In this document: positions 13,149 through 62,540 of the stretch, in pieces
Position numbering within the stretch: position 1 is the stretch's first letter
How the letters are laid out: each line of letters starts with the position of its first letter
NCBI RefSeq assembly: GCF_000813745.1
Contig: NZ_JWLC01000006.1
Coordinates: forward strand, 186,001 to 250,000
Length of the DNA: 64,000 nucleotides
Source of the DNA: Leisingera sp. ANG-M1
GTDB lineage: Bacteria > Pseudomonadota > Alphaproteobacteria > Rhodobacterales > Rhodobacteraceae
Reading direction: 5' to 3'
The notes under the pieces: model-generated
The model's input: only the letters and a program-made list of their open reading frames with translations
Told to the model about the DNA's origin: nothing
Databases searched by the model: none
Translations under genes and position numbers: made by a program

Positions 13149-13189
13149 CCCTTGTGCAGCAGCCGGACGCCCTCCCGCCCGTCGCCAGT

Positions 13190-13310
13190 GCATTTGAAAA
13201 TGCCCAGCTCCCGTTGGGCCAGGCTCAGCGCCTGAGGCGCTGAGCCTGGCCCAAGGCCGCCAAGGGGATCCGGCGCAGCCGGGGCACCTGCGGGCACGGG
13301 AGTGCCCCGC
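13190..13310. repeat. palindromic intergenic repeat, family A copy 2
   Basis: The same 19-bp stem as at 9089-9129 (13214-13232 with 13236-13254), with loop TGA instead of AAA. Flanks are closely similar: CATTTGAAAA upstream, GGCCGCCAAGGGGATCCGGC downstream and a final CGGGAG. It lies after hemN, before the convergent yejF. Confidence 0.78.
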
Positions 13311-13421
13311 CGCATTTAAAACACTGGAAAGCAGCCGGGCAGAAAAGGCCAGCACGTTTGCCGCAACTCATACACGCCGCGCAGGCCGTGAACCCGTAGA
13401 TGCTGCATGCCTGACAGGGGG

Positions 13422-15014
<1,593 letters not shown>

Positions 15015-15071
15015 TTTTCTACCCCTTGAAATCCTGCGCTAAGGGCGGTGCCCGGCCGAGGGCGGAAACGA

Positions 15072-15120
15072 AGTGCCCGCCCGTGGGGGCGGACGGGCAC
15101 TGCCCGGCGAGCCGCCGGGC
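15072..15120. repeat. intercistronic hairpins between yejE and yejF
   Basis: Two adjacent hairpins: AGTGCCCG (15072-15079) with CGGGCACT (15094-15101), then GCCCGGCG (15102-15109) with CGCCGGGC (15113-15120) around loop AGC. Being inside an operon, they may affect mRNA processing or yejF level. Confidence 0.5.
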
Positions 15121-15147
15121 GGCGCATCTTTGCGACCTGCTCCAATT

Positions 15148-16254
15148 TCATGAAAACGTCTTCCGCGGATCAAAGGCATCGCGCACCCCTTCAAAGATGA
15201 AGATCAGCAGCGACAGCATGATCGCAAAGGTAAAGAAGGCGGTGAAGGCGAGCCAGGGCGCTTCCAGATTCTGTTTCGCCTGCAGTGTCAGCTCGCCCAG
15301 GCTGGGGGCCGAGGACGGCAGGCCGAAGCCTAGGAAGTCGAGGCCGGCCAGCAGCCCGATAGTGCCGGTGATGATGAAGGGCAGCATGGTCAGCGTCGCC
15401 ACCATCGCATTGGGCAGCATGTGGCGGAACATGATGGTCATGTTGCCGACCCCCAGCGCCTTGGCGGCGCGGACGTATTCCAGGTTGCGGGCCCGCAGGA
15501 ATTCGGCCCGCACCACGCCCACCAGTGCGGTCCAGCCGAACAGGATCATCAGCCCGACCAAGAGCCAGAAGCTGCGGCCCAGAATGGCGAACATGATGAT
15601 GATCACATAAAGCGAGTTGATCGAGCCCCAGACCTCGATCACCCGCTGGAAGATAAGGTCGGTCAGACCGCCGAAATAGCCCTGCACCGCGCCGGCCAGA
15701 ATGCCCAGCAGGCTGGCAGCGCCAGTAACCATCAGGGTGAACAGGATCGACAGACGGAAGCCGTAGATCACCCGCGCCAGCACATCGCGCTTGGTGTCGT
15801 CGGTGCCCAGAAGGTTCTGGCTGTTGGGTGGCAGCGGTGCCGCGCCGGGGCGGTCGACGGTGGTGTTAAAGCTGTAGGGAATCGGCGGCCAAAGGGTCCA
15901 GCCCTGCGCGAACCCGTCAGCGGCATAGGTGCCTGCGGCGATTTCGGAAAGGATGCCCTCAGGGTCATCGAAACAGTCCTCGACGCCTCCCGACTGGATC
16001 AGGCACTCGACCTCCGGATCGCCATAGATCGCCTCGGTCTGGAAATCGCCGCCGAACCTGGTCTCGGGGTAGAACTTGAACACCGGCGCATAGATTCCGC
16101 CGCGGTAGCTGACCAGGATCGGCTTGTCGTTGGCAATGAACTCGGCAAACAGCGACAGGCCGAACAGCACCGCAAAGATCCACAGCGACCAATAGGCCCG
16201 GCGGTTTTTGCGGAAATTATGCCAGCGGCGCAGGTTCAGGGGGGACAGTGCCAT
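15148..16254 (-). CDS. yejE: peptide ABC transporter permease (YejE type)
   Basis: 368 residues. It begins SPLNLRRWHNFRKNRRAYWSLWIF, the YejE/OppC N-terminus, then a long periplasmic segment with YPETRFGGDFQTEAIYGDPEV and HLLGTDD-type NLLGTDDTKRDVLARVIYG. The permease core follows with the EAA-like loop EYVRAAKALGVGNMTIMFRHMLPNA. Five to six membrane helices are visible. It starts three bases after yejB stops, so translational coupling is likely. Confidence 0.93.
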   Translation of the reverse strand: MALSPLNLRRWHNFRKNRRAYWSLWIFAVLFGLSLFAEFIANDKPILVSYRGGIYAPVFKFYPETRFGGDFQTEAIYGDPEVECLIQSGGVEDCFDDPEGILSEIAAGTYAADGFAQGWTLWPPIPYSFNTTVDRPGAAPLPPNSQNLLGTDDTKRDVLARVIYGFRLSILFTLMVTGAASLLGILAGAVQGYFGGLTDLIFQRVIEVWGSINSLYVIIIMFAILGRSFWLLVGLMILFGWTALVGVVRAEFLRARNLEYVRAAKALGVGNMTIMFRHMLPNAMVATLTMLPFIITGTIGLLAGLDFLGFGLPSSAPSLGELTLQAKQNLEAPWLAFTAFFTFAIMLSLLIFIFEGVRDAFDPRKTFS

Positions 16255-16257
16255 GGT

Positions 16258-17343
16258 TCAGCCCTCCCGCTTTTCAAAGTCGATGCGTGGATCGACGAAC
16301 ACATACATCAGGTCCGAGACGATACCGACCACCAGCCCCATCAGGCCGAAGATATACATGGTGCCGAACATCACCGGGTAATCGCGCGCCACCGCGGCCT
16401 CGAACCCCAGGCGGCCAAGGCCGTCAAGCGAGAAGATCGTCTCAATGATCAGCGAGCCGGAGAAGAAGACTCCGATGAACACCGCAGGGAAACCGGCAAT
16501 CACAATCAGCATCGCATTGCGGAACACATGGCCATACAGCACCCGGGTCTCGCCCAGCCCCTTGGCGCGGGCGGTCATCACATATTGCTTCTTGATCTCA
16601 TCCAGGAAGGAGTTCTTGGTCAGCAGCGTCAGCGTCGCAAAGGCCGCGATGGTCGAAGCTGCCACCGGCAGTGCAATGTGCCAGAAATAGTCTGCGATCT
16701 TGCCAAACAGGCTGAGGCTTTCCCAATTGTCCGAGGTAAGGCCCCGCAGCGGAAATACCTGCCAATAGGAGCCGCCGGCCAGCAGCACCAGCAGCATGAT
16801 GGCAAACAGGAAACCCGGAATGGCATAGGCTGCAATAATCACACCGCTGGTCCAGGTATCAAACGAGGAGCCGTCGCGCATCGCCTTGCGGATGCCCAGC
16901 GGGATCGAGATCAGATAGGCAATGAGCGTCGACCACAGGCCCAGCGAGATCGAGACCGGCATTTTCTCAAGCACCAGGTCAGTCACCCCGATCTTGCGGA
17001 AATAGCTCTCGCCGAAATCGAAGGTAGCATAATTGCCAAGCATGATCAGAAAGCGTTCCAACGGCGGCTTGTCGAGACCGAACTGCTGTTCCAGCTCGGC
17101 AATCAGCTCCGGCGGCAGGCCCTGGCGGCCGGCATAGTTTTCGTTGGCGCCGATGGTCTCGGTGCCGGTGTCGCCGCCATTGCCGGCGAAACCTTCGAAC
17201 ACATCGCCGCCGCCTTCAATCTGGGCGATGATCTGCTCGACGGGGCCGCCGGGCACGAATTGCACCAGGGCAAAATTCACCACCAGGATGCCGAACAGCG
17301 TTGGGATCACCAGCAGCAAGCGGCGCAGGATATAGGCTGCCAT
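16258..17343 (-). CDS. yejB: peptide ABC transporter permease (YejB type)
   Basis: 361 residues. N-terminal [19 protein letters not shown] is the OppB/DppB-family start. Helices continue through the EAA loop ([24 protein letters not shown]) and end with [16 protein letters not shown] YejB-specific insertion after helix 1 ([26 protein letters not shown]) is present. It pairs with YejE to form the channel. It lies 9 nt after the yejA stop. Confidence 0.93.
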
Positions 17344-50679: not shown

Positions 50680-51846
50680 ATGACTGCCATGTACCACCGC
50701 CTCCCCGTCTCCGCCTACACCAGCCAGGACTGGTTCGACCGCGAGCAGGCGCTGATCTTCTCGCGCAGCTGGCGCTATGCCGGCCTGGCCGAGGACGTGC
50801 CGGAACCGGGCCACTATATTGCGGTGCAGGCCGGCCTCAACAACCTGTTCATCGTGATGGGCCGCGACCGCCGCCTGCGTGCCTTCCACAACATCTGCCG
50901 CCACCGCGGCACCCAGCTGATCCGCGCAGTGGGCAAGTCGCAAAAGGCGCTGACCTGCCCCTATCACGACTGGACCTACGATCTGGAAGGCAACCTGGTT
51001 TCGGTCCCCGATGAGGCCCGCGAATACCCGGGCGGCCTCGACAAAAGCTGCCTCGGCCTGAAACCCGCCAGCGTCGATATCTGGCGCGGCATGCTGTTCG
51101 TGCACCCTGACCCGCGGGCCCCCGGCCTGGCCGAATGGTTCGGTGCCGTCGACCCGCACCTCGGGCCGCATAAGTCAGACCAGCTCGCAGAATACCCCGA
51201 AGCCCGCCAAACCTATGAAATCAAGGCCAATTGGAAGATCGTCGTGGAGAATTACATCGACGTCTACCACCTCAGCCACCTGCACGCGAACACGCTGCAT
51301 ATGTACGACCACGCCAAGGCCGAATACGGCTGGAAAGGCCCCCACTACCACTTCTGGGAGCCCCCCAGCGCGGCTTATGCCAAGGACCTGGAAAAGAACC
51401 TCCCCACCCCGCGGGTGATCCCGCAGCCTCATACCGGCACCTGGGTCCCGATGCTGTTCCCCGGCATCGGCATCGGCGCCAGCGAGGACAGCTGGAACCT
51501 CTTCATCATCACCCCGCTGGGCCCAAAACTGACCCGGGTCGAAAACCGCACCAAGCTCGCCAGCGCCTCGGAGTGGGAATTCAGCAAGCAGGCCTGGAGC
51601 AGCCAGGGTTTCTGGAAGAATTTCGGCGGTCCGAAATACAGCGGCAGCGACGCCTCTGGCGAAGACGACCCGATGGCCTCCGGCGATTTCACCGCCGAGG
51701 ATATCTACGCCTGCGAGCAGCAGCAAAAGTCGCTGCAAAGCCCCTACTTCGAGGTTGGCCCGGCCGCGGCAGGCGAAAGCCCGGTTATCCGGCATCAGCA
51801 GGCGGTGCTGGACTTTCTTGCAGCGCAGGAGACCCCGGCGCCATGA
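50680..51846 (+). CDS. Rieske non-haem iron oxygenase, alpha subunit
   Basis: 388 residues from ATG at 50680 (TGAGGA upstream). Rieske [2Fe-2S] ligands C73-x-H75 and C93-x2-H96 (CRHRG, CPYHDW). The mononuclear iron site is D195/H198/H203 in ENYIDVYHLSHLH, where D195 is the canonical bridging aspartate. Length and lack of a beta-subunit gene place it with GbcA/carnitine-oxygenase-like alpha-only enzymes acting on N-methyl or quaternary amines. The substrate is not determined. It overlaps the reductase gene by 4 nt. Confidence 0.88.
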   Translation: MTAMYHRLPVSAYTSQDWFDREQALIFSRSWRYAGLAEDVPEPGHYIAVQAGLNNLFIVMGRDRRLRAFHNICRHRGTQLIRAVGKSQKALTCPYHDWTYDLEGNLVSVPDEAREYPGGLDKSCLGLKPASVDIWRGMLFVHPDPRAPGLAEWFGAVDPHLGPHKSDQLAEYPEARQTYEIKANWKIVVENYIDVYHLSHLHANTLHMYDHAKAEYGWKGPHYHFWEPPSAAYAKDLEKNLPTPRVIPQPHTGTWVPMLFPGIGIGASEDSWNLFIITPLGPKLTRVENRTKLASASEWEFSKQAWSSQGFWKNFGGPKYSGSDASGEDDPMASGDFTAEDIYACEQQQKSLQSPYFEVGPAAAGESPVIRHQQAVLDFLAAQETPAP

Positions 51847-52901
51847 GCGGTTTCCACAGCCTGACAGTAGCCGGTATCCAGCAGGAAGCCGGCGGCAGCG
51901 CAACCAGCGTGACATTTGACCTGCCGCCGGCGCTTGCGGAGACCTTCCGCTGGCAGGCCGGGCAGCACCTGCCGGTTCGCTTTGAAACCGGAGGCCGGGA
52001 GTACCGCCGCTGCTACTCCATCTCCAGCCCGCCCGGCGCACCGCTGCGCATCACCGTCAAGCGGGTCAAAGGCGGCGTGGTTTCAAACCGCATTTCAGAC
52101 AGCCTCGCACCCGGCAGCACGGTTGAGGCAATGCCGCCCGCAGGCCGGTTCGTGCTCGCCCCTGCCGCCTTGGCCCGCCGGACCCACTACTTCTTTGCCG
52201 CCGGCAGCGGCATCACCCCCCTGTTTGCCATGATCCGCGCCGTCCTGGATCACGAACCGCACTCGGCCGCCCATCTGATCTATGGCAACCGCTCGGCCCG
52301 CGGCATCATCTTCCGGGAAGAACTGGAGGCACTCGCCGCAGCCTTTCCGGACCGCTTTACCCTGCGCCATGTGCTGTCCTCTCCCCGTCTGTGGAGCGGG
52401 TTCACCCCCTGGCGCAGCGGCCGCATCACCCGCGATGCCATCAGCGCAGCCTTTGCGGGCACCCCGCCGGTGGCGCAGGATGTGCAGTACTGGATCTGCG
52501 GCCCGGGAACGATGAACGCCGGGATACGTAAGGCTCTGATGGAGCTGGACGTGCCAGCCGGCCGCATCCGCATGGAAAGCTTCGGCCTCAGCAGCCCCTC
52601 CGGCAGCACCGGACCTGCCGGCGTCGCCGCTACCGCATCCGTGACCGTGAACGGCAGCCGCCGGGAGATTCCTGTTGCCGCCGGGCAGACCTTGCTCGAA
52701 GCCGCCCTGGCCAGCGGCCTCACCCCGCCGCACAGCTGCCAGTCCGGAGTCTGCGGCGCCTGCCGTGCCAGGCTGACCTCAGGCCGGGTGGAAATGCGCG
52801 CGCAAATGGCCCTAAGCAGTTCCGAAGTGGAACAGGGAGACATCCTGACCTGCCAAAGCCTGGCCGAAACCAGCGAACTGGCGGTTGTTTACAAGGATTG
52901 A
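51843..52901 (+). CDS. Rieske oxygenase reductase (FAD/NAD plus 2Fe-2S ferredoxin)
   Basis: 352 residues. Order: FAD-binding FNR barrel with RRCYSISSPP, an NAD(P) domain with AAGSGITPLFAMIRAVL and CGPGTMNAGIRKAL, then a C-terminal plant-type ferredoxin (SCQSGVCGACRARL...LTCQS; C-x4-C-x2-C plus distal C). This is the GbcB/PaaE layout and supplies electrons to the oxygenase whose stop codon it overlaps (ATGA). Confidence 0.92.
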   Translation: MSGFHSLTVAGIQQEAGGSATSVTFDLPPALAETFRWQAGQHLPVRFETGGREYRRCYSISSPPGAPLRITVKRVKGGVVSNRISDSLAPGSTVEAMPPAGRFVLAPAALARRTHYFFAAGSGITPLFAMIRAVLDHEPHSAAHLIYGNRSARGIIFREELEALAAAFPDRFTLRHVLSSPRLWSGFTPWRSGRITRDAISAAFAGTPPVAQDVQYWICGPGTMNAGIRKALMELDVPAGRIRMESFGLSSPSGSTGPAGVAATASVTVNGSRREIPVAAGQTLLEAALASGLTPPHSCQSGVCGACRARLTSGRVEMRAQMALSSSEVEQGDILTCQSLAETSELAVVYKD

Positions 52902-52912
52902 CCCTGAACAAA

Positions 52913-52939
52913 AAAGGCCGGGCGCGATGCCCGGCCTTT
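52913..52939. terminator. bidirectional terminator between the two accessory operons
   Basis: AAAGGCCGGGC (52913-52923) pairs with GCCCGGCCTTT (52929-52939) around GCGAT. The minus-strand copy is followed by TTTTTTG, so it mainly ends the leftward ABC operon and also the rightward reductase gene. Confidence 0.85.
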
Positions 52940-52961: not shown

Positions 52962-53753
52962 TTAGTGGCCCAGGATCTGGCTGAGGAACAGTTTCGTCCG
53001 GTCGCTCTTGGGGTTGTTGAAGAACTCTTCCGGTTCGTTCTGCTCCACGATCTGGCCCGCGTCCATGAAGATCACCCGGTTCGCCACCTGGCGCGCAAAG
53101 CCCATCTCGTGGGTCACGCAGAGCATCGTCATGCCCTCTTCCGCCAGTTCGATCATGGTGTCGAGCACCTCCTTGATCATCTCCGGGTCGAGGGCCGAGG
53201 TCGGCTCGTCGAACAGCATGATCCGCGGCATCATGCACAAGCTCCGCGCAATCGCCACCCGCTGCTGCTGGCCGCCCGACAGCATGCCGGGGTATTTGTT
53301 GGCCTGCTCCGGGATCTTCACCTTCTCCAGGAAATGCATCGCCCGCTCCTCGGCCTCTTTCTTGGGCGTCTTGCGGACCCAGATCGGCGCCAGGGTGCAG
53401 TTCTCCAGGATGGTCAGATGCGGGAACAGGTTGAAGTGCTGGAACACCATCCCCACTTCGGAGCGGATTTTGTCGATGTTTTTCAAGTCGTTCGACAGTT
53501 CGGTGCCATCGACGACAATCTTGCCCTGCTGGTGCTCTTCCAGCGCATTGAGGCAGCGGATCAGCGTCGATTTGCCGGAGCCCGAGGGGCCCGCGATCAC
53601 GATCCGCTCGCCCTGATTGACGGTCAGATTGATGTCGCGCAGCACGTGGAACGAGCCGTACCACTTGTTCATGCCATTGATTTCGATGGCGACCTCGTCG
53701 CTCACCTGCATCTTGGAGCGGTCGATTTGACGGTCGGACATAAGTTCAGACAT
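52962..53753 (-). CDS. amino-acid ABC transporter ATPase (HisP/GlnQ type)
   Basis: 263 residues from ATG at 53753 (AGGAGACC upstream). Walker [10 protein letters not shown], signature LSGGQQQR, Walker [14 protein letters not shown] and the switch histidine in [10 protein letters not shown]. GlnQ/HisP subfamily (polar amino acid uptake). An N-terminal extension of about 20 residues precedes the domain. Last gene of the eight-gene operon; its start overlaps the end of the OCD-family gene by 8 nt. Confidence 0.93.
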
Positions 53754-54681
53754 TGCGGGTCTCCTGGGTCGCGGTGATGGCGGCGGCAAGATCCATCACC
53801 GCATTGCCGACGGATTTGAACAGGGTGATTTCTTCGGCGGTGCCGCGCCCGGCCCGGCCCTGGGTCAGGGCATGAAGGTCGCCGAGAATATCCGCTTGGG
53901 CGATGGCGCCGGTTTCCAGGGGCGTCTTCAGCTCGCCCGCCTCAATGGCGGCAAACCTGGTGTCCACGAACAGCCGGGCCCGCTGCAGGGCGCGGTCGTC
54001 GGCCTCGCGCATGGCCGGGGTAAAGGCGCCGATCAGGTCCACATGCTGGCCCGGCTGCAGCCAGTCGCCCATCAGCAGCGGCTCGGTAGCCAGGGTGGCG
54101 GCGCTGATGATATCGGCCTGCGGCACTGCTGCGGCCAGATCGCTGACGGCCTCAGCATCCCAGCCTTTGGCGCGTAATTCCCCCGCCAACCGTTCCGCCG
54201 AGGCGGAAGAGACATTCCAGATCCGCACCTCGTCGACCGGACGCACATTGCGGAACGCCTCCGGCAACTGCGCCGCCACCTTGCCGGAACCGAGGATCAG
54301 CAGTCTGCGGGCATTCTCCCGCGCCAGGTGTTTAGCGCCGAGCGCCGAGGCGGCTGCCGTGCGCCGGGCGGTCAGCACCGCCCCGTCCAGCAAGGCCAGA
54401 TGCGCGCCGGTGGCGCGGTCGAAGACCAGCACCGATCCGGCGATGGCGGGCAGGCTGCGGGCTGCATTGCCGGGAGTGGCGGTCACCACCTTCACGCAGC
54501 CCACGGTACCGGTCCAGGCAGGCATCAGCAGCAGCGTGGCGTCCGGTTCCCCTTGCATCTCCATCGTATGGTGATGGCGGTCCGGCGCCGCCAGACCGCT
54601 GGCAAACAGCGCCTGCATCTGCCCGATCAGCGCCTCAAAGGGCAGCGCTGCAGCGGTGGCCTCAGCATCAAGTATCTTCAT
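53746..54681 (-). CDS. ornithine cyclodeaminase/mu-crystallin family enzyme
   Basis: 311 residues. K64 (GCVKVVT) and R106-R107 ([14 protein letters not shown]) form the substrate-binding part. The Rossmann loop is [11 protein letters not shown] and the family motif [15 protein letters not shown] follows. Its length is closer to imine reductases, delta1-pyrroline-2-carboxylate reductases and DauB-type L-arginine dehydrogenases (all about 310 residues) than to true ornithine cyclodeaminase (about 350). Activity is therefore uncertain: either NAD(P)-linked amination/reduction or ornithine to proline. It starts 3 nt after the flavoenzyme. Confidence 0.85.
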
Positions 54682-54684
54682 GGC

Positions 54685-55824
54685 TCAGCTTTCAAAACGG
54701 GAGGGAGAGAACAGCGCCGGGTCAACCCCGGCCTCCGCCACATCTGCGGGCATATCCGCACCGGTCAGCAGCGCGGCAGCGATCTGCCCCACCGCGGGCG
54801 AGGTCTGGATGCCGTAACCGCCGACGCCCGCCAGCCAGAACAGGCCGGGCACCTGGCCGGAGAAACCAATCACCGGCAGCCGGTCGCTGGCAAAGGTCCG
54901 CAGCCCTGCCCAGCTGTGCGCCACATGGGAGACTTCCAGCGTGGTGCATTCGCTGAGGTAGTGAGCCGCATAGGCGATATCGAGTTCCTCGGGCCAGGCG
55001 TCATGCGGCGCAACCGGGGTTTCATCCGCCGGGCTGACCATCAGCTGGCCCGCGTCGGGCTTGAAATAGAAGACCTCGTCGATTTCGTTGACCTCGGGCA
55101 TGGCGGAGACGTCGTAGCCCGGCACCTTGACGCTGATCGCGGTGCGGCGGTGCGGGGTGAGGCCCAGAGGCTTGGCGCCGAACAGCGCTGCCACGGGATC
55201 GGCCCAGCCGCCCGCGGCGTTGACCACGGTGCGGGCGCGGATTTCACCGCTGGCGGTTTCCAGAACCCAGTGGTCCCCGTCCCGGCGGGCAGCGGTGACG
55301 GCGGCGGACTGGCGCACCTTTGCGCCTTTGGCCTTGGCGCCACGGATGTAGCTTTGCAGCAGGTTCTCGACCTCGATGTCCCAGCAGTCCGGGTCGTAGA
55401 AGGCGGCCTTGACCCAGTCCGGGTCCAGAAACGGCATCTTCGCCAGCGCTTGTTCGACGGTTAGCAGTTCGACTGGCGGGGCGCCTGCTGGCGTATTGGC
55501 GCGCTCCTGTTCGTAGACTTTGCGCAGGTGATCCGCCTTTTCCGCCTCGGCAATCAGCAGGTTGCCGCGCGGGCGCAACAGGTCCACGTCTGTGAAGCCT
55601 GCCTGCGGCTGCATCATGAACGTGGTGCTGGCCTGGGTCAGCTGTCCGGCTGCCGGGGAGTGGAACCGGCGGGTGAATTCTGCTGCCGAGCGGCCTGTGG
55701 AGTGGTAGCCGAGCGAGGCCTCCTGCTCGAGCAGCACAACGGAGCGCTGTCCTTGCAGGAAATAGGCAACCGAAGCGCCGGTGATGCCGCCGCCGATAAT
55801 GGCGATGTCATGGATTTCAGGCAT
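54685..55824 (-). CDS. FAD-dependent D-amino-acid dehydrogenase, DauA-like
   Basis: 379 residues from ATG at 55824. The dinucleotide fold is IAIIGGGITGASVAYFL, then LGYHSTGRSAAEFTRRF. The C-terminal pattern is SPADETPVAPHDAWPEELDI, HSWAGLRTFASDRLPVIGF and LAGVGGYGIQTSPAVGQ. From memory these strongly resemble D-arginine dehydrogenase DauA of Pseudomonas. Conserved Tyr/Arg (VFYFKPDAG, AGLRTF) fit carboxylate binding, but N88 replaces the Glu (E87 in DauA) that holds the guanidinium. So a related but different D-amino acid or secondary amine may be the substrate. Confidence 0.82.
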   Translation of the reverse strand: MPEIHDIAIIGGGITGASVAYFLQGQRSVVLLEQEASLGYHSTGRSAAEFTRRFHSPAAGQLTQASTTFMMQPQAGFTDVDLLRPRGNLLIAEAEKADHLRKVYEQERANTPAGAPPVELLTVEQALAKMPFLDPDWVKAAFYDPDCWDIEVENLLQSYIRGAKAKGAKVRQSAAVTAARRDGDHWVLETASGEIRARTVVNAAGGWADPVAALFGAKPLGLTPHRRTAISVKVPGYDVSAMPEVNEIDEVFYFKPDAGQLMVSPADETPVAPHDAWPEELDIAYAAHYLSECTTLEVSHVAHSWAGLRTFASDRLPVIGFSGQVPGLFWLAGVGGYGIQTSPAVGQIAAALLTGADMPADVAEAGVDPALFSPSRFES

Positions 55825-57313
55825 TGTTCTCATCCAGCGGGAAGACGGGGCGGCGCAGGCGGGTGTAGCTGCGCTGCTTGACGTTGGGGGTGCAGAGGCC
55901 GCCCGCGTCGGTGACGATGATCTCAGACGCGATGGGGCCGAAGGCGCCCTTGAAGTGCTGCATGGATTTCACTGCCAGCACTGCTTTCTCAGTGGGTTCG
56001 ATGCCCACGACCCGGAACACATTCTTGTCCAGCATCTGCATCCGGTCCGAGACGATCATGATGTCGATGCCCCTTACCCGCAGGCAGACACTGAGGCCGG
56101 TGGAGCCGGGCAGGCCGGTGAACATCGGCCCCTCGAAGGTGAAGCTGCCGTCGCTGACGGCCATCACCGTGCCGGTCACCTGCAGGGGCCCGCCGCCCAC
56201 GGATGCGTCGGTTTTGCCGCCGATGGAGAGCGTGGCTTCGGCGCCGATGCCGCGGGCGGCGAGCTCCTTGGCGGCTGCGGGGTCATAAAGCGCCCCGGCT
56301 GCCGCGTTTTCAATGCCGGCCTCCAGCATCGCTGCGATCAGTGCGGTGCAGTCGCTGTAGCCGCCGGAACCCGGATTGTCGGAGAAATCCGCCACCACAA
56401 CCGGGCCCGTGCCGGATGAGGTGCGTTTCAGCCGGGTTATGCAGTCTTCCAGCGGCACCGGCAGGTCCCACTGGTCGCGGAAGTCCCAGATGCGGCTGCA
56501 GATCCGCTTGGCGGCAGCGGCGGCGGTTTCTGCTGCGGCCTGGGTGGTGTCATAGGTGACCAGAACCGAGGGTCCCGCGGCCCAGACATCGGCATCGGTG
56601 AAGCCTGCGTTGATGGCCACGTTCAGAATGCCGGGCGCCTGTTTTTCGCGTTCCGCGTCTTCCAGCAGGCGGCACATGGGGCCATCTTCGGTGGTACGGC
56701 CGTCGTCGCATCCGACCAGCATCGGCGGGCGGCGGATCAGCAGTTTGGGGGTGATTTCCCCTTCCAGCGTTTGGTGCAGCAACTCGCAGGCCTCCACCCC
56801 CACCTCGTGCATGTCCACATGCGGATAGGTGCGGAAAGAAACGGCGATTTGCGCCTGATCCGCCAGCTCGTCGGAGATGTTGGCGTGCAGGTCCAGGGTC
56901 ACGGCCAGCGGGATATCATCCCCTACAACCGCCCGGACCGCGCGCAGGAACTGGCAATCGCCATCCTCGTCCGTCTCGGTCACCATTGCGCCGTGCAGCG
57001 CCACAAACACACCATCGAACGGCACTTGCTCCTGCAGGCGGCGGGTGCATTCGCCGGTGATCTCTGCCCGCGCGGCCTCGGTCACCGGGCCGTTCGGCTC
57101 GGCATGGGCGGCGGTGATATAGACAGGGTCCCAGCCGCGCGCTTCGGCAACTTCGATGGCGCCGCCGACCTCGGAGCCGGTGCCGCGGAAGTTCTCCGGG
57201 ATTTCATCGCCCTTGAACCAATGGGAGGCGCGGAAATCGTCCATCCCTGTGCGCATCACGGTGAAGGTGTTGCTTTCGTTGATGAACTCGATGATGGCAA
57301 CGCGGTGGGTCAT
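55817..57313 (-). CDS. M81 family metallopeptidase (MlrC-like)
   Basis: 498 residues. MTHRVAIIEFINESNTF, VALHGAMVTETDEDGDC and TLDLHANIS followed by YPHVDMHEVG supply the zinc site (D141, H143 and H165 or H169). The C-terminal half has VVADFSDNPGSGGYSDCT, as in MlrC, the last hydrolase of microcystin breakdown. Many members sit in amino-acid uptake operons; natural substrates are mostly unknown. It overlaps the ureohydrolase gene by 4 nt and the flavoenzyme gene by 8 nt, so it is tightly coupled to both. Confidence 0.9.
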   Translation of the reverse strand: MTHRVAIIEFINESNTFTVMRTGMDDFRASHWFKGDEIPENFRGTGSEVGGAIEVAEARGWDPVYITAAHAEPNGPVTEAARAEITGECTRRLQEQVPFDGVFVALHGAMVTETDEDGDCQFLRAVRAVVGDDIPLAVTLDLHANISDELADQAQIAVSFRTYPHVDMHEVGVEACELLHQTLEGEITPKLLIRRPPMLVGCDDGRTTEDGPMCRLLEDAEREKQAPGILNVAINAGFTDADVWAAGPSVLVTYDTTQAAAETAAAAAKRICSRIWDFRDQWDLPVPLEDCITRLKRTSSGTGPVVVADFSDNPGSGGYSDCTALIAAMLEAGIENAAAGALYDPAAAKELAARGIGAEATLSIGGKTDASVGGGPLQVTGTVMAVSDGSFTFEGPMFTGLPGSTGLSVCLRVRGIDIMIVSDRMQMLDKNVFRVVGIEPTEKAVLAVKSMQHFKGAFGPIASEIIVTDAGGLCTPNVKQRSYTRLRRPVFPLDENNA

Positions 57314-58278
57314 GCCGCCTCCTTCCGCTGCGCGGCGCGGGCGCAGATGTATTCCAGTGCCAGCGAGGCGCCAAGCAGGGCGGTGGTGCCGGTGGGGTCA
57401 TAGGGCGGTGAGACCTCGACAATGTCCATGCCCACGAAATTCATGTCCACGCTGCCGCGCAGGAACTGGATGATGTCATTCGGGGTGAGCCCGTCCACCA
57501 CCGGGGTTCCGGTGCCGGGGGCATAAGCCGGGTCCAGGCTGTCGATGTCGATCGACAGATAGGCCGGGCGGCTGCCAACCACCTCGCGCACCGTTTGCAG
57601 CGCGCCGCGCCAGCCGTGCTCATGCAGCCAGTCGCGGTAGAGCACGGTCATCGGGTCGTCGTGGTCATAGAAGGTGCGGATGCCGATCTGCACCGAGTGG
57701 TGCGGGTCGATCAGCCCGTCCTGGATCGCGTGGTGCACGAAAGTGCCGTGGTCGAACCAGTCGCTTTGCTGGGTGTCGCGGTGGGCGTCGAACTGCACCA
57801 GCGCCAGGGGCCCGTGCTTCTCGGCATGCGCTTTCAGCGCGGTGTAGGTGGTGCAGTGGTCGCCGCCCAGCATCAGCGTGCTGGCGCCTGCATTGGAGAT
57901 ATGGCGGGCCATGGCAATGGCGCTGTCGCGCATCTGCTCCGCCTGGCCGCGGCGGAAGGGCACGTCGCCGCAGTCCACCACTGACAGGATATCGAAAGGA
58001 TCAAAGCCCCAGGGCCAGACCTCGCCCCAGGCCAGCTGCGTTGAGGCTTCGCGCAGCGCGCTCGGCCCCAGCCGGGCGCCTGGGCGGGCGGAGGTGGTGA
58101 GATCAAAGGGGATGCCATAGACGCCGATATCAACGCCTGTCATATCTACCGTCGGGCGGCGGCGCATGAAGGTGCGGATGCCGGAATAGGGCATCTCCAC
58201 ATGGGTGCCGTCGGGGCCGGTGGCGGTCTGGAACACGCCTTCGCGGCCGAACAGAATGTCATCTGCCTGTGTTTTCAT
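57310..58278 (-). CDS. agmatinase-family ureohydrolase
   Basis: 322 residues from ATG at 58278 (AAAGGATAACAACA upstream). All dimanganese ligands are present: H141 (GGDHC), D164/H166/D168 (FDAHRD), D244/D246 (SIDIDSLDP). It hydrolyses a guanidino group to urea plus an amine; family members act on agmatine, guanidinobutyrate, guanidinopropionate or arginine derivatives. Context with an arginine-type importer and DauA-like enzyme suggests a guanidino acid rather than agmatine. Five nt after the second permease. Confidence 0.9.
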   Translation of the reverse strand: MKTQADDILFGREGVFQTATGPDGTHVEMPYSGIRTFMRRRPTVDMTGVDIGVYGIPFDLTTSARPGARLGPSALREASTQLAWGEVWPWGFDPFDILSVVDCGDVPFRRGQAEQMRDSAIAMARHISNAGASTLMLGGDHCTTYTALKAHAEKHGPLALVQFDAHRDTQQSDWFDHGTFVHHAIQDGLIDPHHSVQIGIRTFYDHDDPMTVLYRDWLHEHGWRGALQTVREVVGSRPAYLSIDIDSLDPAYAPGTGTPVVDGLTPNDIIQFLRGSVDMNFVGMDIVEVSPPYDPTGTTALLGASLALEYICARAAQRKEAA

Positions 58279-58283
58279 TGTTG

Positions 58284-58967
58284 TTATCCTTTGGTTTGCA
58301 GCCAGACATTGCGGCCTTCCATCCAGCGCCACAGCGCCTCGATCACCAGCACCACCAGCAGATAATTGGCAGCCGCGATGTAGAAGACGCTGAGGTCGAA
58401 GGTCTCGCCGAACAGATAGCGCGCCTGGCCCATCACATCGCGTACGGTGATCACGCTCACCAGTGCCGAGGCTTTCAGGAGCAGCACCAGCTCATTGCCG
58501 AAGGCGGGCAGCATGCGGGCCACGGTGATCGGCAGGATCAGCAGGCGGAAGCGCTGGAAGCGGTGCAGGCCCATGGCCAGGCCGGCCTCGATGGTGCCCT
58601 TGGGGATCGCCAGGATGCCGCCGCGCAGGATCTCGGCCTGGTAGGCGGCGGAATTCAGGGTGAAGGCCAGAAGGCCGCAGTAATAGGCGTCACGGAAGAA
58701 CCACCACAGCCCCAAGGCTTTGAATTCCTTATGGAACTGTCCCAGCCCGTAGTAGATGATGAAGATCTGCACCAGCAGAGGCGTGCCGCGCACCAGGTAG
58801 ATGTAGCCATAGGCGAGCCGCGACAGGAAGCGGTGCTTGCTGAGCCGGGCTGCCGCCAGGGAGACCGCGACGAAGAAGCCAAGGACAAAGCCTAGGATCG
58901 TCAGGCTGACGGTGTTTTGCAGGCCTTGCACCCAGAGATCGGCGTTTTCGGTCAGATGGTCCAGCAT
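58284..58967 (-). CDS. amino-acid ABC transporter permease 2
   Basis: 227 residues from ATG at 58967. Five membrane helices and the HEQ/EAA loop (YQAEILRGGILAIPKGTIEAGLAMGLHRFQRFRLLILP) define the HisM/GlnP class. It begins one base before the end of permease 1's stop region, so translation is coupled. Together with permease 1 it forms a heterodimeric channel like HisQM/OccQM. Confidence 0.92.
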   Translation of the reverse strand: MLDHLTENADLWVQGLQNTVSLTILGFVLGFFVAVSLAAARLSKHRFLSRLAYGYIYLVRGTPLLVQIFIIYYGLGQFHKEFKALGLWWFFRDAYYCGLLAFTLNSAAYQAEILRGGILAIPKGTIEAGLAMGLHRFQRFRLLILPITVARMLPAFGNELVLLLKASALVSVITVRDVMGQARYLFGETFDLSVFYIAAANYLLVVLVIEALWRWMEGRNVWLQTKG

Positions 58968-58968
58968 C

Positions 58969-59685
58969 TCAGCGCCCTCCCACCAGATTGCGGTTGGCGC
59001 GGGCCTCCAGAACGGTCTGGATCTGCCCGGAGATAAAGGCCAGCACCACATAGACCAGCGCCAAGACCGAGTAGAAGAAGAACGGCTCGCGGGTGGTGGC
59101 AATGGCCATATTGGCGTAGCGCATCATGTCGTTCACGGCGATGATGGAAATCAGCGAGGTGTCTTTCAGCAGGATCAGCCACAGGTTCCCGAAAGCGGGG
59201 ATTGCGTGGCGCCACATCTGCGGCAGGATCACCAGGAAGAACGCCTGGCCGCGGTGCAGCCCCATGGCGGCGGCGGCTTCTGATTGGCCTTGACCGACAG
59301 CCTGATAGGCGGTGCGGACCACTTCGGAACCCAGCGCAGAGAACACTAGCGTCAGAGCCACAACCCCGGCAGCAAAGGCGTTGAGCGAGATGTTGGCATC
59401 CTCAACAAACAGGCCGGCGCCGAGGTTCAGCAGGCTTTGCAGCTGGTAGTAGATGATGATCAGGGTGAGGATCTCGGGCAGGCTGCGGAACACGGTGGTG
59501 TAGCCATTGGCCAGGCGGCGGACCCATTTGGATTTGGCGTGCTTGCCCCAGGCAATGACGAAGGACATCGCCAGCGCGCAGGGGGCGGTCACCAGCGCCA
59601 GCGCCATGGTGACCCAGAAGCCGCGCAGCAGCTCATCCCCCCAGCCTTCGTCCCCGAAGGCGAGCAGTGAAAACAGTTCGGTCAT
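58969..59685 (-). CDS. amino-acid ABC transporter permease 1
   Basis: 238 residues. Five helices; loop VVRTAYQAVGQGQSEAAAAMGLHRGQAFFLVILPQM is the EAA motif. HisQ/OccQ class. It lies 61 nt after the binding-protein gene, and its stop is immediately followed by the permease 2 start. Confidence 0.92.
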   Translation of the reverse strand: MTELFSLLAFGDEGWGDELLRGFWVTMALALVTAPCALAMSFVIAWGKHAKSKWVRRLANGYTTVFRSLPEILTLIIIYYQLQSLLNLGAGLFVEDANISLNAFAAGVVALTLVFSALGSEVVRTAYQAVGQGQSEAAAAMGLHRGQAFFLVILPQMWRHAIPAFGNLWLILLKDTSLISIIAVNDMMRYANMAIATTREPFFFYSVLALVYVVLAFISGQIQTVLEARANRNLVGGR

Positions 59686-59746
59686 GGAGGACGCTCCCTA
59701 AGCGTTCCGGTAAGGGCGGGCCCGCATGGTGCAGGCCCGCGCCATC

Positions 59747-60541
59747 TTAGTTGCTCAGATGCTCCGAGGCTTTCTTGGGCTGGGTCATGATGTCGAAGGC
59801 AAAGTATTCGCCGCGGATCTTGTCATAGGTGCCGTCCTCCACGATCGCGTCCAGCGCCGCGTTCAGCGCGTCGCGCAGGTCGGTGTCATCCTGGCGCACT
59901 GCAACCCCGGTGCCCTTGGCGAAGTCCGGCAGGAAGGCCTCGCCGACAAACTCGCAGCAGCCGCCTTCGTCGCTCTTCAGCCAGTCGCCCAGCACAAACT
60001 GGCTGGCCAGAACCAGATCAACGCGGCCGGTTTCCAGGTCCAGCAGCGCGTCGTCCAATTTCGGATAGAGCTTCAGCTCGCTGTCCGGGAAGTAGTCTTC
60101 CAGGATATCCACCTCGCCGGTGGCCGACTGGGTACCGATCACCAGCCCCTTGAGGTCGGCAGGCAGGGCGTTTTCCAGCCCGTGGCCTTCAGCGGCAACA
60201 AAGCGGATGCCGTTGAAGTAATAGGGATTGGTGAAGCTCACGATCTTGCTGCGCTCGTCGGTGATCGACATCGAGGCGATGATGGTGTCGAACTTATCCG
60301 CGTTCAGCGCCGGGATGATGCCGTCCCAGTCGGTGGTCACCCACTCGCATTTGACTTCCATCCGTTCGCACAGGGCGTTGCCGATGTCGATGTCGAAGCC
60401 TTTGATCTGGCCGGCGCTGTCGAAGAAGTTGAACGGCGGGTAGTAGCCTTCGGTGCCCATGCGGACCACTTTGTCCCCGGCCAGGGCGGCGGTGGCGCAG
60501 ACAGAGGTGGCAATGGCCGTCATCGCGAGTTTTGCAAACAT
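59747..60541 (-). CDS. periplasmic amino-acid-binding protein (HisJ/ArgT-like)
   Basis: 264 residues with a signal peptide ending ATAALA (21). SBP family 3: VVRMGTEGYYPPFNFFDSAGQIKGFDIDIGNALCERM is the LAO/HisJ/OccJ N-terminus, with the aromatic pair FNFF and FDID. VGTQSATGEVDILEDYF-type GTQSATGEVDILEDYF follows. It probably binds a basic amino acid or guanidino compound. First gene of the operon, facing the LysR gene across 117 nt. Confidence 0.92.
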   Translation of the reverse strand: MFAKLAMTAIATSVCATAALAGDKVVRMGTEGYYPPFNFFDSAGQIKGFDIDIGNALCERMEVKCEWVTTDWDGIIPALNADKFDTIIASMSITDERSKIVSFTNPYYFNGIRFVAAEGHGLENALPADLKGLVIGTQSATGEVDILEDYFPDSELKLYPKLDDALLDLETGRVDLVLASQFVLGDWLKSDEGGCCEFVGEAFLPDFAKGTGVAVRQDDTDLRDALNAALDAIVEDGTYDKIRGEYFAFDIMTQPKKASEHLSN

Positions 60542-60600
60542 GGTGTCCTCCCGGTGGTTTGCTGATCTGGTGCAGGAGGATTCCCGAGGTTGGCGCCTAA

Positions 60601-60620
60601 CTCAAATTTATAGTTTTGAG
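60601..60620. promoter_or_regulatory. candidate LysR operator
   Basis: CTCAAA (60601-60606) and TTTGAG (60615-60620) form an inverted repeat in an AT-rich intergenic region that separates the binding-protein gene from its divergent LysR gene. Confidence 0.5.
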
Positions 60621-60658
60621 ATATGGTATTTATCAGATTTATTCTCTAGCGTTCCGCC

Positions 60659-61576
60659 ATGAGTGACTTTGCCCGCAATCTGGACTGGAACCTGCTCTAT
60701 ACCTTCATGGTGGTGGTGCAGAACGAGAGCATGACCAAGGCCGCCGAGGAGCTCTTGCGTTCGCAGCCGGCGGTCAGCCTGGCGGTCAAGCGGCTGGAGG
60801 CCAGCACCGGCAAGCGGCTGCTGACCCGTACGGGCAACCGGCTGGCGGTGACCCCGGCAGGGCAGGCGCTGTACGAGCAGGCGAGCGAGATTTATTCTGC
60901 GATTTCAAGGCTTCCTCTGACGTTCGAAGCCGCACCGCGGGCACTGACCGGCAAAATCACTGTCGCCTCGATTGACCAGGTCGAAAGCGATGTCCTGAAC
61001 GCCCGCCTGACCAGGTTCTTTGCGGAATACCCTGGCGTCGAGCTTGAGATCCTGCTGGCAACCACCGCGGATGTGATCCGGATGGTCGAACTGGGCACTG
61101 CCACCTTCGGCATCTGCGACGGCGTTATTCCCAAAGGCTTCACCAGCCTGGAGCTGGTGAACGAACGTTTCGGCCTCTACTGCGGCGCCGGTTACCACTT
61201 GGCCGGGCGCACCGGCCTGGCCCCGATGGACCTGCGGGGAGAACCCTTTATCGGTTTCACTGCCGATGTTCTGGGCGGCAGCCATATGGGCGACGTCACG
61301 GCCTTCCGCGCCCGCGCCTCTATCGGCCAGCACGTGCGCGGCCAGTCCAGCCATGTGAACGAGGTCCGCCGGATGATCGAATGCGGTCTGGGCATTGGGT
61401 TTCTTCCGACCCATCTGGCCGATCCTTTTGCCGCCCGGGGCAGCCTGTTCCGCTTGCCGCCTTACGAGAATGAACCCTGCGCCATGGTCTACTTGATCGC
61501 AAACCCCGCGATTGCCTTGTCAGAAGCGGAACAGCTGCTGCTGGAGCAAATGCTGTTGGAGCTTCCAGCCAGCTGA
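60659..61576 (+). CDS. LysR-type regulator of the guanidino-compound operon
   Basis: 305 residues. HTH: LDWNLLYTFMVVVQNESMTKAAEELLRSQPAVSLAVKRLEASTGKRLLTR. The effector domain has GKITVASIDQVESD and ends EAEQLLLEQMLLELPAS. Divergent from the ABC operon, as OccR and NocR are in opine loci. Presumed to activate the operon when its imported substrate is present. Confidence 0.92.
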   Translation: MSDFARNLDWNLLYTFMVVVQNESMTKAAEELLRSQPAVSLAVKRLEASTGKRLLTRTGNRLAVTPAGQALYEQASEIYSAISRLPLTFEAAPRALTGKITVASIDQVESDVLNARLTRFFAEYPGVELEILLATTADVIRMVELGTATFGICDGVIPKGFTSLELVNERFGLYCGAGYHLAGRTGLAPMDLRGEPFIGFTADVLGGSHMGDVTAFRARASIGQHVRGQSSHVNEVRRMIECGLGIGFLPTHLADPFAARGSLFRLPPYENEPCAMVYLIANPAIALSEAEQLLLEQMLLELPAS

Positions 61577-61733: not shown

Positions 61734-62540
61734 ATGGAACAGATGATTGAACAAGCAGGCGTATACTGGCCTCTTGCGGTGAGCGGCGCCAAGGCCCTGG
61801 CGGTCTTGATCCTCGGCTGGATTGCCACCGGCTGGATCAGCGGCGCGGTGCGGCGGCGCATCAACAAGACGCCGCAGCTCGACCCGACACTGGGCAACTT
61901 TGCCGCCAGCGTGATCCGCTGGGCGCTGCTGGCTGTGGTGCTGGTCGCCGTGCTCGGCATTTTCGGCATCCAGGCCACCAGCCTGGTCGCCATGCTGGGT
62001 GCTGCCACCCTGGCCATCGGCCTGGCGCTGCAGGGCACTCTCAGCGATCTGGCAGCCGGCTTTATGCTGATCCTGTTCCGCCCCTACAAGATCGGCCAGT
62101 ATGTGGATATCGGCGGCACCTCAGGCACGGTGAAGGACCTGAACCTGTTCGTGACCGAGCTGGCCACGCCTGACAACGTGCAGATCATCGTGCCCAACGG
62201 CCAGGCCTGGGGCTCGATCATCACCAATTTCTCGCATCATGCGACCCGTCGCGTCGACATGGTCTTCGGCATCGACTACGGCGACAGCGCCGATGCGGCC
62301 AAGGAGATCATCCTGGCCCAGGCCAAGGCGGATGAGCGCGTGCTGCAGGATCCCGAACCCTGGGTGCGGGTCACCAACCTGGGCGACAGCTCGGTGGATC
62401 TGACGGCACGGGTCTGGTGTGACGCGGCAGACTATTGGGAAGTGAAATTCGCCCTGACGCAAGGCGTGAAAGAAGCGTTTGACGCCCAAGGCATCTCGAT
62501 CCCCTATCCGCATTCGGTGGAGATCAAAAAGGAAGGCTGA
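61734..62540 (+). CDS. small-conductance mechanosensitive channel (MscS)
   Basis: 268 residues. Three helices; the pore helix TM3 is LGAATLAIGLALQGTLSDLAAGFMLILFRPYKIGQYVDIGG with the Gly/Ala packing pattern of MscS, then the beta domain (IIVPNGQAWGSIITNFSHHATRRVDMVFGIDY) and a C-terminal alpha/beta cage. It opens under membrane tension to release solutes. Length close to E. coli MscS (286). Confidence 0.95.
   Translation: MEQMIEQAGVYWPLAVSGAKALAVLILGWIATGWISGAVRRRINKTPQLDPTLGNFAASVIRWALLAVVLVAVLGIFGIQATSLVAMLGAATLAIGLALQGTLSDLAAGFMLILFRPYKIGQYVDIGGTSGTVKDLNLFVTELATPDNVQIIVPNGQAWGSIITNFSHHATRRVDMVFGIDYGDSADAAKEIILAQAKADERVLQDPEPWVRVTNLGDSSVDLTARVWCDAADYWEVKFALTQGVKEAFDAQGISIPYPHSVEIKKEG

Follow-up and report, generated by a model that had tools for sequence, protein, structure and literature searches.

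A predicted operon for uptake and degradation of a guanidino compound, possibly N-acylated D-arginine, in Leisingera sp. ANG-M1

Introduction

The closest described relatives of the locus reported here, an eight-gene operon with a divergent LysR gene at positions 52,962 to 61,576 of a 64,000-nucleotide stretch of Leisingera sp. ANG-M1 (contig NZ_JWLC01000006.1; this whole stretch is hereafter called the window), are the dauBAR operon of Pseudomonas, the noc and occ loci of Agrobacterium and the M81-family enzyme MlrC (microcystinase C). The dauBAR system converts D-arginine through 2-ketoarginine to L-arginine, and DauB is a member of the ornithine cyclodeaminase (OCD) superfamily. The noc and occ loci are devoted to nopaline and octopine. 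In the Adda-Glu bond on which MlrC acts, the glutamate is the D form and is linked through its side chain. MlrC cuts this Adda-Glu amide (PMC12474180). In addition, a D-arginase of Arthrobacter sp. KUJ 8602, identical with a Zn guanidinobutyrase, is by its title a ureohydrolase acting on D-arginine (cited in PMC11271267).

A sequence-only reading of the window had proposed a system that takes up and degrades a guanidino compound, D-arginine-like or opine-like, with release of urea and with proline as a possible end product. The present analysis supports these proposals. We suggest, with about an even chance or slightly less of being right, that the operon takes up and degrades an N-alpha-substituted, most likely N-acylated, D-arginine. 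No account of such a pathway was found among the papers listed by searches of open-licence PubMed Central, as judged by titles and the starts of abstracts.

Results

The operon and its variant form

The operon comprises eight genes on the minus strand, from 60541 down to 52962, plus the divergent LysR gene. The protein names below include predicted functions.

59747..60541, minus: substrate-binding protein of the LAO/NocT/OccJ class, family 3, first gene (Pfam SBP_bac_3)
58969..59685, minus: ABC permease 1, HisQ/ArtQ type (BPD_transp_1; 35% to NocQ)
58284..58967, minus: ABC permease 2, HisM/ArtM type (BPD_transp_1; 44% to NocM)
57310..58278, minus: agmatinase-family ureohydrolase, with (N-acyl-)D-arginine as its predicted substrate (Arginase; PRK02190 364.1 bits, cut-off 302)
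55817..57313, minus: M81 (MlrC-like) zinc amidase, predicted to act on an N-acyl-arginine amide (PF07364 DUF1485 and PF07171 MlrC_C)
54685..55824, minus: DauA-like flavin adenine dinucleotide (FAD) D-amino-acid dehydrogenase, predicted D-ornithine dehydrogenase (DAO; 43% to DauA)
53746..54681, minus: delta1-pyrroline-2-carboxylate (P2C) reductase, OCD superfamily (OCD_Mu_crystall; NF004793 384.7 bits)
52962..53753, minus: ABC transporter ATPase, last gene (PF00005 ABC_tran; 50% to NocP)
60659..61576, plus: divergent LysR regulator (PF00126 HTH_1 and PF03466 LysR_substrate)

Every Pfam family of the nine proteins scored above its own cut-off. The positions and families given by the sequence-only reading were confirmed. 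The first three junctions, from the binding protein gene to the ureohydrolase gene, have gaps of 61, 1 and 5 bases; the ureohydrolase and M81 genes overlap by 4 bases and the M81 and FAD genes by 8, followed by a gap of 3 bases between the FAD and OCD genes and an overlap of 8 between the OCD and ATPase genes. The gene order is kept in other genera and is thus not due to chance.

In two genomes (G070 and G277, loci L041 and L042) the operon takes a variant form, with an Orr-type alanine/ornithine-racemase gene in the place of the FAD gene and, after the ATPase gene, a true ornithine cyclodeaminase (NF005762, 560 and 562 bits, above the cut-off of 350) in place of the P2C reductase. The variant operons retain LysR (58-59%), the binding protein (74%), both permeases, the ureohydrolase (74-75%), M81 (62%) and the ATPase (77-78%). 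The FAD enzyme and P2C reductase would convert D-ornithine through pyrroline-2-carboxylate to L-proline, and the racemase and cyclodeaminase would convert it through L-ornithine to the same product. Since both enzyme pairs would lead from D-ornithine to L-proline, the ureohydrolase would most likely yield D-ornithine, that is, act on D-arginine or an acyl-D-arginine. In a small sample of 11 genomes, the P2C reductase model was exceeded in 4/4 hosts of the FAD type, in 0/2 of the racemase type and in 1/5 hosts with M81 only, the last by a gene with an internal stop; weaker relatives occurred in all 11. Rhizobium anhuiense, one of the four FAD-type hosts, lacks the reductase gene in its operon and has two copies elsewhere in its genome.

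The FAD enzyme, the reductase and the ureohydrolase

The FAD enzyme reached 300 bits with the structure 3nyc. We take E87, H48, R222, R305 and Y249 of DauA to be its substrate residues; R222, R305 and Y249 are kept in the window enzyme, as is E246. The DauA gate residue Y53 is F in 6/6 operon copies; PMC10655190 and PMC9996824 describe this gate together with E246 and T50. A second DauA-like gene (41%), with one TGA within the matched frame, lies elsewhere in the Leisingera genome (C45:29090-30169; L066). The last enzyme had been assigned to the OCD family, which stands at the level of the superfamily: the protein passed the P2C/Pip2C reductase model NF004793 (cut-off 322). As an ornithine cyclodeaminase it was rejected, with 120.3 bits for NF005762, far under the cut-off of 350.

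The ureohydrolase is 46% identical to E. coli agmatinase SpeB and 26% to the noc arginase. All eight residues assigned to metal binding or catalysis in SpeB, whose roles are given in PMC8125230, are intact. SpeB loop A is shorter in the operon enzyme, and the specificity loop in 8/8 operon copies has Q at SpeB Y155, S at N157 and R at T152, with Y at F190 of loop B. SpeB Y155 occupies the position of arginase N130 (PMC8125230). In a wider clade of 96 database proteins at E 1e-110, taken from the best 8000 candidates scored, R152 and Y190 were each present in 95 and Q155 in 48, the others having A (31), M (9), L (6), K (1) or G (1) at position 155. Q155 is thus a mark of half of the wider clade.

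For another member of this clade, in G1483 (L085; 58%), the next gene downstream is of the Orr type (335 bits); the cluster around it also contains genes for hydantoinase A and B and for an ABC importer resembling PotB. The hydantoinase B and A genes (L085 453-4387), for which caprolactamase beta was the nearest model (271 bits against 1000), possibly encode a further enzyme that opens amides or lactams of arginine derivatives. The Orr-type racemase of this cluster (L085 9834-11672) and that of plasmid cluster L083 (7004-8788), the latter 41% identical to the racemase of the variant operon, carry a C-terminal arginase-like domain. The DAHxD metal motif is missing from the arginase-like domain of both, which points to a pseudo-ureohydrolase domain, and the fusion as proof of coupled racemisation and urea release is weakened by its loss in these two copies. 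The neighbours of these genes, in L085 and in the plasmid clusters L083 and L084, tie such racemases to arginine breakdown and are compatible with either arginine or ornithine as the racemised compound. The Leisingera genome itself has 8 arginase-family matches (among them L001, L002, L004 and L008), four of them in two adjacent pairs (C77:65323-67063 and C5:110450-112281); in one partner of the C5 pair, A replaces H163 and C replaces E274 of SpeB, which recalls two-subunit ureohydrolases such as metformin hydrolase.

The binding protein

The nearest PDB entry to the binding protein was LAO, followed by NocT and OccJ. The residues that hold octopine and nopaline are contrasted with those of LAO in PMC5740067 and PMC4192606. 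The guanidino and carboxylate pocket of NocT/OccJ consists of E11, Y14, W52, R77 and Q117 in LAO numbering, LAO itself carrying D, Y, F, R and L at these positions (PMC5740067, Table 3). All five are present in 21/21 binding proteins from operon and M81-only loci (15/15 in a first set), a number which includes near-identical pairs such as L019/L024, L041/L042 and the Shinella rows, so that the 21 are not independent. N90, common to neither NocT nor LAO, is also present in 21/21. The aspartate D161, which holds the free alpha-amine in LAO (PMC5740067, PMC4192606), is lost in 21/21, being S in 20 and G in 1.

On the keto-acid side, the window protein has S, I, G, E and S at LAO positions 72, 92, 121, 122 and 161, agreeing at 1/5 with OccJ (Ser-Asn-Thr-Ala-Asn) and at 1/5 with NocT (Gly-Met-Ser-His-Ser); its S161 occupies the position of NocT S207. 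A full NocT or OccJ signature was found on this side in none of the 21 proteins, where single residues match. The ligand is most likely, to judge by these residues, an arginine derivative with free guanidino and carboxylate groups and a substituted amine, or D-arginine with its amine pointing elsewhere.

The M81 enzyme

The M81 protein matched the structure 7ylq with 198.6 bits in phmmer. The zinc ligands of MlrC are E39, D167, H169 and H191 (H196 is also printed for the last), and no kinetic values are tabulated for the alanine variants of H133 and D332 (PMC9982164). Alignment and motifs place these six residues in the window enzyme as E13, D141, H143, H165, H107 and D312, and the proposed general base E70 is aligned with G, with an E a few residues further on.

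In 14 M81-only loci, M81 stands with the same class of binding protein and the other operon enzymes are absent. Across the family of R. anhuiense, M81 was present at E 1e-140 in 7/247 genomes, one of which was R. anhuiense itself; the other six loci all have the order LysR-binding protein-M81, and the constant companions of M81 in the M81-only loci are the binding protein and a LysR of another type. Because M81 occurs with this binding protein in the absence of the other enzymes, it probably acts on the compound that the protein imports, and an N-acyl-arginine would suit both. In several of these loci (L011, L014, L020, L026, L075-L080) the binding protein and M81 genes are adjacent and no homologue of the operon permeases was detected; in some, ATPase matches of 33-36% sit kilobases off in other importer clusters, and the permease is presumably encoded elsewhere. 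In a Roseovarius locus (L015), a Rieske-type gene, an arginase (279.7 bits, cut-off 227.6) and an ornithine cyclodeaminase (576 bits, cut-off 350) occupy 12863-16416, beyond the M81-only unit. The arginase and the cyclodeaminase share the strand of this unit and lie 3-5 kb downstream of it, the Rieske-type gene standing in between; a GbdR-like regulator and a second Rieske-type gene come next. These neighbours support arginine as the M81 product.

The M81 tree grouped the roseobacter operon copies with M81-only copies (81/88, not starred). Forcing the eight operon copies together gave p-AU 0.033, and a like grouping on the binding proteins was rejected (p-AU 6e-16); the groups were chosen after the identities had been seen, so the comparison is not a clean one. 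It is no more than suggestive of an exchange of M81 between the operon and the M81-only unit. On plasmids of Gemmobacter and Pseudosulfitobacter (L027, L028), M81 genes 43-45% identical stand right after a different ABC importer with two permeases, two ATPases and a MurR/RpiR regulator, another M81 uptake unit.

Occurrence in relatives

A pattern-based M81 scan of the species-genome collection, covering close relatives only, gave 12 loci: 4 with operon genes, 7 with the binding protein beside M81 and 1 (L017) with no recognised partner. The operon-type loci belong to a Phaeobacter metagenome-assembled genome (L009), Tropicibacter (L018), Falsiruegeria (L010) and R. anhuiense (L019). At L010 the permease 1 match spans 64% only, and neither the binding protein nor LysR was found in the stretch analysed. 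L011-L016 and L020 have M81 and the binding protein, and close homologues of the ureohydrolase, FAD and OCD genes are absent from them. In Rhizobium the operons (L019, and L024 on the annotated pRL11) stop after the FAD gene, with no OCD or ATPase gene there. The search for the same gene order in other Rhodobacteraceae, suggested by the sequence-only reading, found it in a few roseobacters and, minus the OCD and ATPase genes, in Rhizobium, and found it to be rare.

The ureohydrolase at E 1e-100 occurred in 3/394 family genomes, the Leisingera genome counted, and M81 at E 1e-130 in 1/101 relatives, which was the same genome. At E 1e-90 the ureohydrolase gave 5 further matches in 385 class genomes and 5 in 398 phylum genomes (49-51% identical), and tblastn detected no M81, FAD or OCD homologues in those 10 regions of 11 to 20 kb. 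The operon is rare and patchily distributed. M81 was found in 8/8 operon copies compared; several had been recovered through M81, but the 5 recovered through the ureohydrolase have it too. A pair of LysR (45-46%) and FAD (52-55%) genes stands separate from the operon on pSymB of Sinorhizobium meliloti and in two Shinella genomes that also carry the M81-only unit. Because this pair stands apart in other genomes, the operon looks as though it arose by the joining of an import/M81 unit with a LysR/FAD one.

Regulatory region and neighbouring genes

The LysR gene, whose start lies 117 bases from that of the binding protein gene, adjoins the operon in L009, L018, L019, L024, L041 and L042, and is likely to encode a ligand-responsive regulator of it. 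The flanking elements are as follows.

60542..60658, no strand: divergent promoter region with the dyad CTCAAA-N8-TTTGAG, a candidate LysR site
52910..52936, minus: terminator-like hairpin GGCCGGGC-ATCGC-GCCCGGCC followed by T6, seen by eye in the sequence and not among the sites that a scan listed

The dyad was rejected as a conserved LysR site, as the exact form is present in only 2/7 operon intergenic regions (window and L009). A Rieske oxygenase gene and a reductase-like open reading frame at 50680-52901 (plus strand) converge on the operon end; the best NCBIfam model of the Rieske gene was GbcA, with 127.6 bits against a cut-off of 670. This pair was discarded as a part of the operon, as it is convergent and tblastn found no such pair in L018, L019 and L024, while L009 and L010 are cut off by the ends of their contigs and are uninformative here. 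Beyond the LysR gene, the open reading frame at 61734-62540 (plus strand) resembles, by the look of its sequence, a small MscS-type channel.

Discussion

The gene set, the families, the intact catalytic residues, the residues of the binding site and the replacement of the back half of the operon in relatives are read from the sequences themselves, and the substrate proposed for each enzyme is a prediction from them. In the pathway we propose, the binding protein would hold the guanidino and carboxylate groups as NocT/OccJ do, with no acidic residue for a free alpha-amine, and the permeases and ATPase would import the ligand. The M81 zinc amidase would cleave the acyl-D-arginine amide and the ureohydrolase would convert D-arginine to urea and D-ornithine, two steps which could be swapped. 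The DauA-like enzyme would then oxidise D-ornithine, the resulting 2-oxo acid would cyclise to P2C, and the OCD-superfamily reductase would form L-proline. A guanidino compound as the substrate is well supported by these features and the D-configuration moderately so, while the acyl cap is the weakest link of the scheme, with the configuration next.

Several observations weigh against this scheme. Over its full length the binding protein is nearer to E. coli ArgT (38%) than to NocT (33%), and the loss of D161 could mean a D-ligand with a free amine, the alignment being blind to D and L forms. The M81-only loci have no D-specific partner, and the L015 neighbours suggest L-arginine at that locus, so that the D-configuration would rest on the operon and not on M81. 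The variant racemases scored 307 and 317 bits with NF040742, under the exception cut-off of 480, which places them in the same family and leaves their identity as Orr unproven; relatives of theirs are annotated beside DUF1611 genes, which makes ornithine uncertain as their substrate. Elsewhere in G070 a DauA-like gene (44%) adjoins a reductase relative of 239.5 bits. In the FAD enzyme, DauA H48 is replaced by E in 9/9 proteins from operon copies and LysR-FAD pairs, and E87 by N in 6/6 operon copies. The ureohydrolase passes the cut-offs of the NCBIfam agmatinase models (the second with 221.6 bits against 174.3) and keeps the agmatine-side W68. Arginase loop residues including Y155N put into SpeB gave no arginine activity (PMC8125230, Table 1), so residue 155 is a hint and not proof, and alone makes no arginase. 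Finally, we know of no acyl-D-arginine that is a common nutrient.

Four other explanations were weighed. Plain D-arginine could be the imported compound, which the ureohydrolase, the FAD enzyme and the reductase would turn into L-proline, leaving M81 a side job on D-arginine dipeptides or an occasional conjugate. All the evidence for D-ornithine would stand here with no acyl group, and an inverted alpha-carbon could explain the loss of D161; M81, present in every operon copy compared and the sole enzyme with this class of binding protein in the M81-only loci, seems to have the imported compound itself as its substrate, and we consider this explanation unlikely but worth keeping in mind. Oxidation could also come before urea release, as the sequence-only reading had it, with the DauA-like enzyme forming 2-ketoarginine, the ureohydrolase removing urea and the reductase leading to proline. 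The likeness to DauA and the retention of E246, R222, R305 and Y249 favour this order, which is sound chemistry with the same endpoint. The ureohydrolase of the racemase variant would then need L-arginine, yet positions 152, 155, 157 and 190 are identical in both forms of the operon, and E87 is replaced throughout. This order is still possible, though distinctly improbable in our judgement; the variant makes the order with urea released first, and with D-ornithine as the intermediate, the simpler one.

Octopine, which the sequence-only reading had named as a candidate, or another true opine of L-arginine would be imported, cleaved oxidatively and passed to an arginase and an ornithine cyclodeaminase. 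The binding protein keeps the arginine side of the NocT/OccJ pocket and has serine at the position of NocT S207. The FAD enzyme, however, has no BLASTP match (E 1e-3) to either oxidase protein of the pTi-SAKURA noc genes, the ureohydrolase is far closer to SpeB than to the noc arginase, the reductase is 29% identical to the noc OCD protein, the keto-acid-side signature is incomplete, the downstream enzymes are of D-amino-acid type and a racemase would be superfluous. Octopine as the substrate was thus not borne out, and we give any such opine very little credence. As little is to be expected of an agmatine or polyamine pathway, in which an ordinary agmatinase would be accompanied by the FAD and reductase genes as unrelated passengers. 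The agmatinase models and W68 speak for it; agmatine would offer no alpha-carboxylate to R77 of the binding protein, the FAD enzyme or the reductase, SpeB Y155 is replaced, and no arginine decarboxylase is present among the operon open reading frames examined with Pfam.

We return to the acylated D-arginine pathway, of which a wider form is possible but on balance doubtful. It would be a dedicated amide counterpart of the opine systems, with an opine-class receptor, uncapping by M81, a D-arginine-specific ureohydrolase and two interchangeable routes from D-ornithine to L-proline. In some rhizobia and roseobacters, the smaller LysR-binding protein-(importer)-M81 unit would represent a recurring system for arginines, L or D, that carry a cap, and would give M81 a physiological role outside microcystin breakdown. 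If true, arginine could reach proline through D-amino acids, the first enzyme of the route being a D-specific ureohydrolase called agmatinase in databases, and M81, a family best known from algal-toxin breakdown, would gain a concrete substrate class. A further implication would be that sea water and the rhizosphere contain N-capped arginine, perhaps of the D form, in amounts that repay dedicated uptake.

Compared with the known systems, the operon shares with dauBAR a DauA-like FAD enzyme and an OCD-superfamily NAD(P)H enzyme. It differs in its reductase, which scores as a P2C reductase, in the added ureohydrolase and M81, in its predicted product, proline, and in the changed H48 and E87 of DauA. 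With the noc and occ loci it shares the LysR gene, the four-part importer and the arginine side of the binding pocket; it has no noc oxidase match, arginase or ornithine cyclodeaminase, and has M81 instead, which, as had been claimed, is without counterpart among the noc genes seen. Neither the operon proteins and LysR nor the Rieske and reductase proteins next door gave a BLASTP match (E 1e-3) to the two oxidoreductases beside the pTi-SAKURA arginase, which we take from their place to be NoxA and NoxB, and an octopine or nopaline locus of the occ/noc kind was rejected by comparison with the pTi-SAKURA noc genes. MlrC is alike in family, zinc ligands, the equivalents of H133 and D332 and the cutting of an acyl-amino acid amide; it is distant (about 200 bits, phmmer), and the window enzyme differs from it in standing with an importer of the small-amino-acid type and in its predicted substrate. 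The Arthrobacter D-arginase is alike, by title, as a ureohydrolase acting on D-arginine. Plasmid clusters of Shinella zoogloeoides and Roseateles (L083, L084) also combine a ureohydrolase, annotated as agmatinase, with an Orr-type racemase, a D-amino-acid dehydrogenase and a C45 amidohydrolase-family gene; they differ in having a 5-guanidino-2-oxopentanoate decarboxylase and an aldehyde dehydrogenase, with an amino acid permease in the L083 record, and no M81 is annotated in the stretches seen. Overall, we rate the operon as a variant of the known opine-like and D-arginine catabolic operons.

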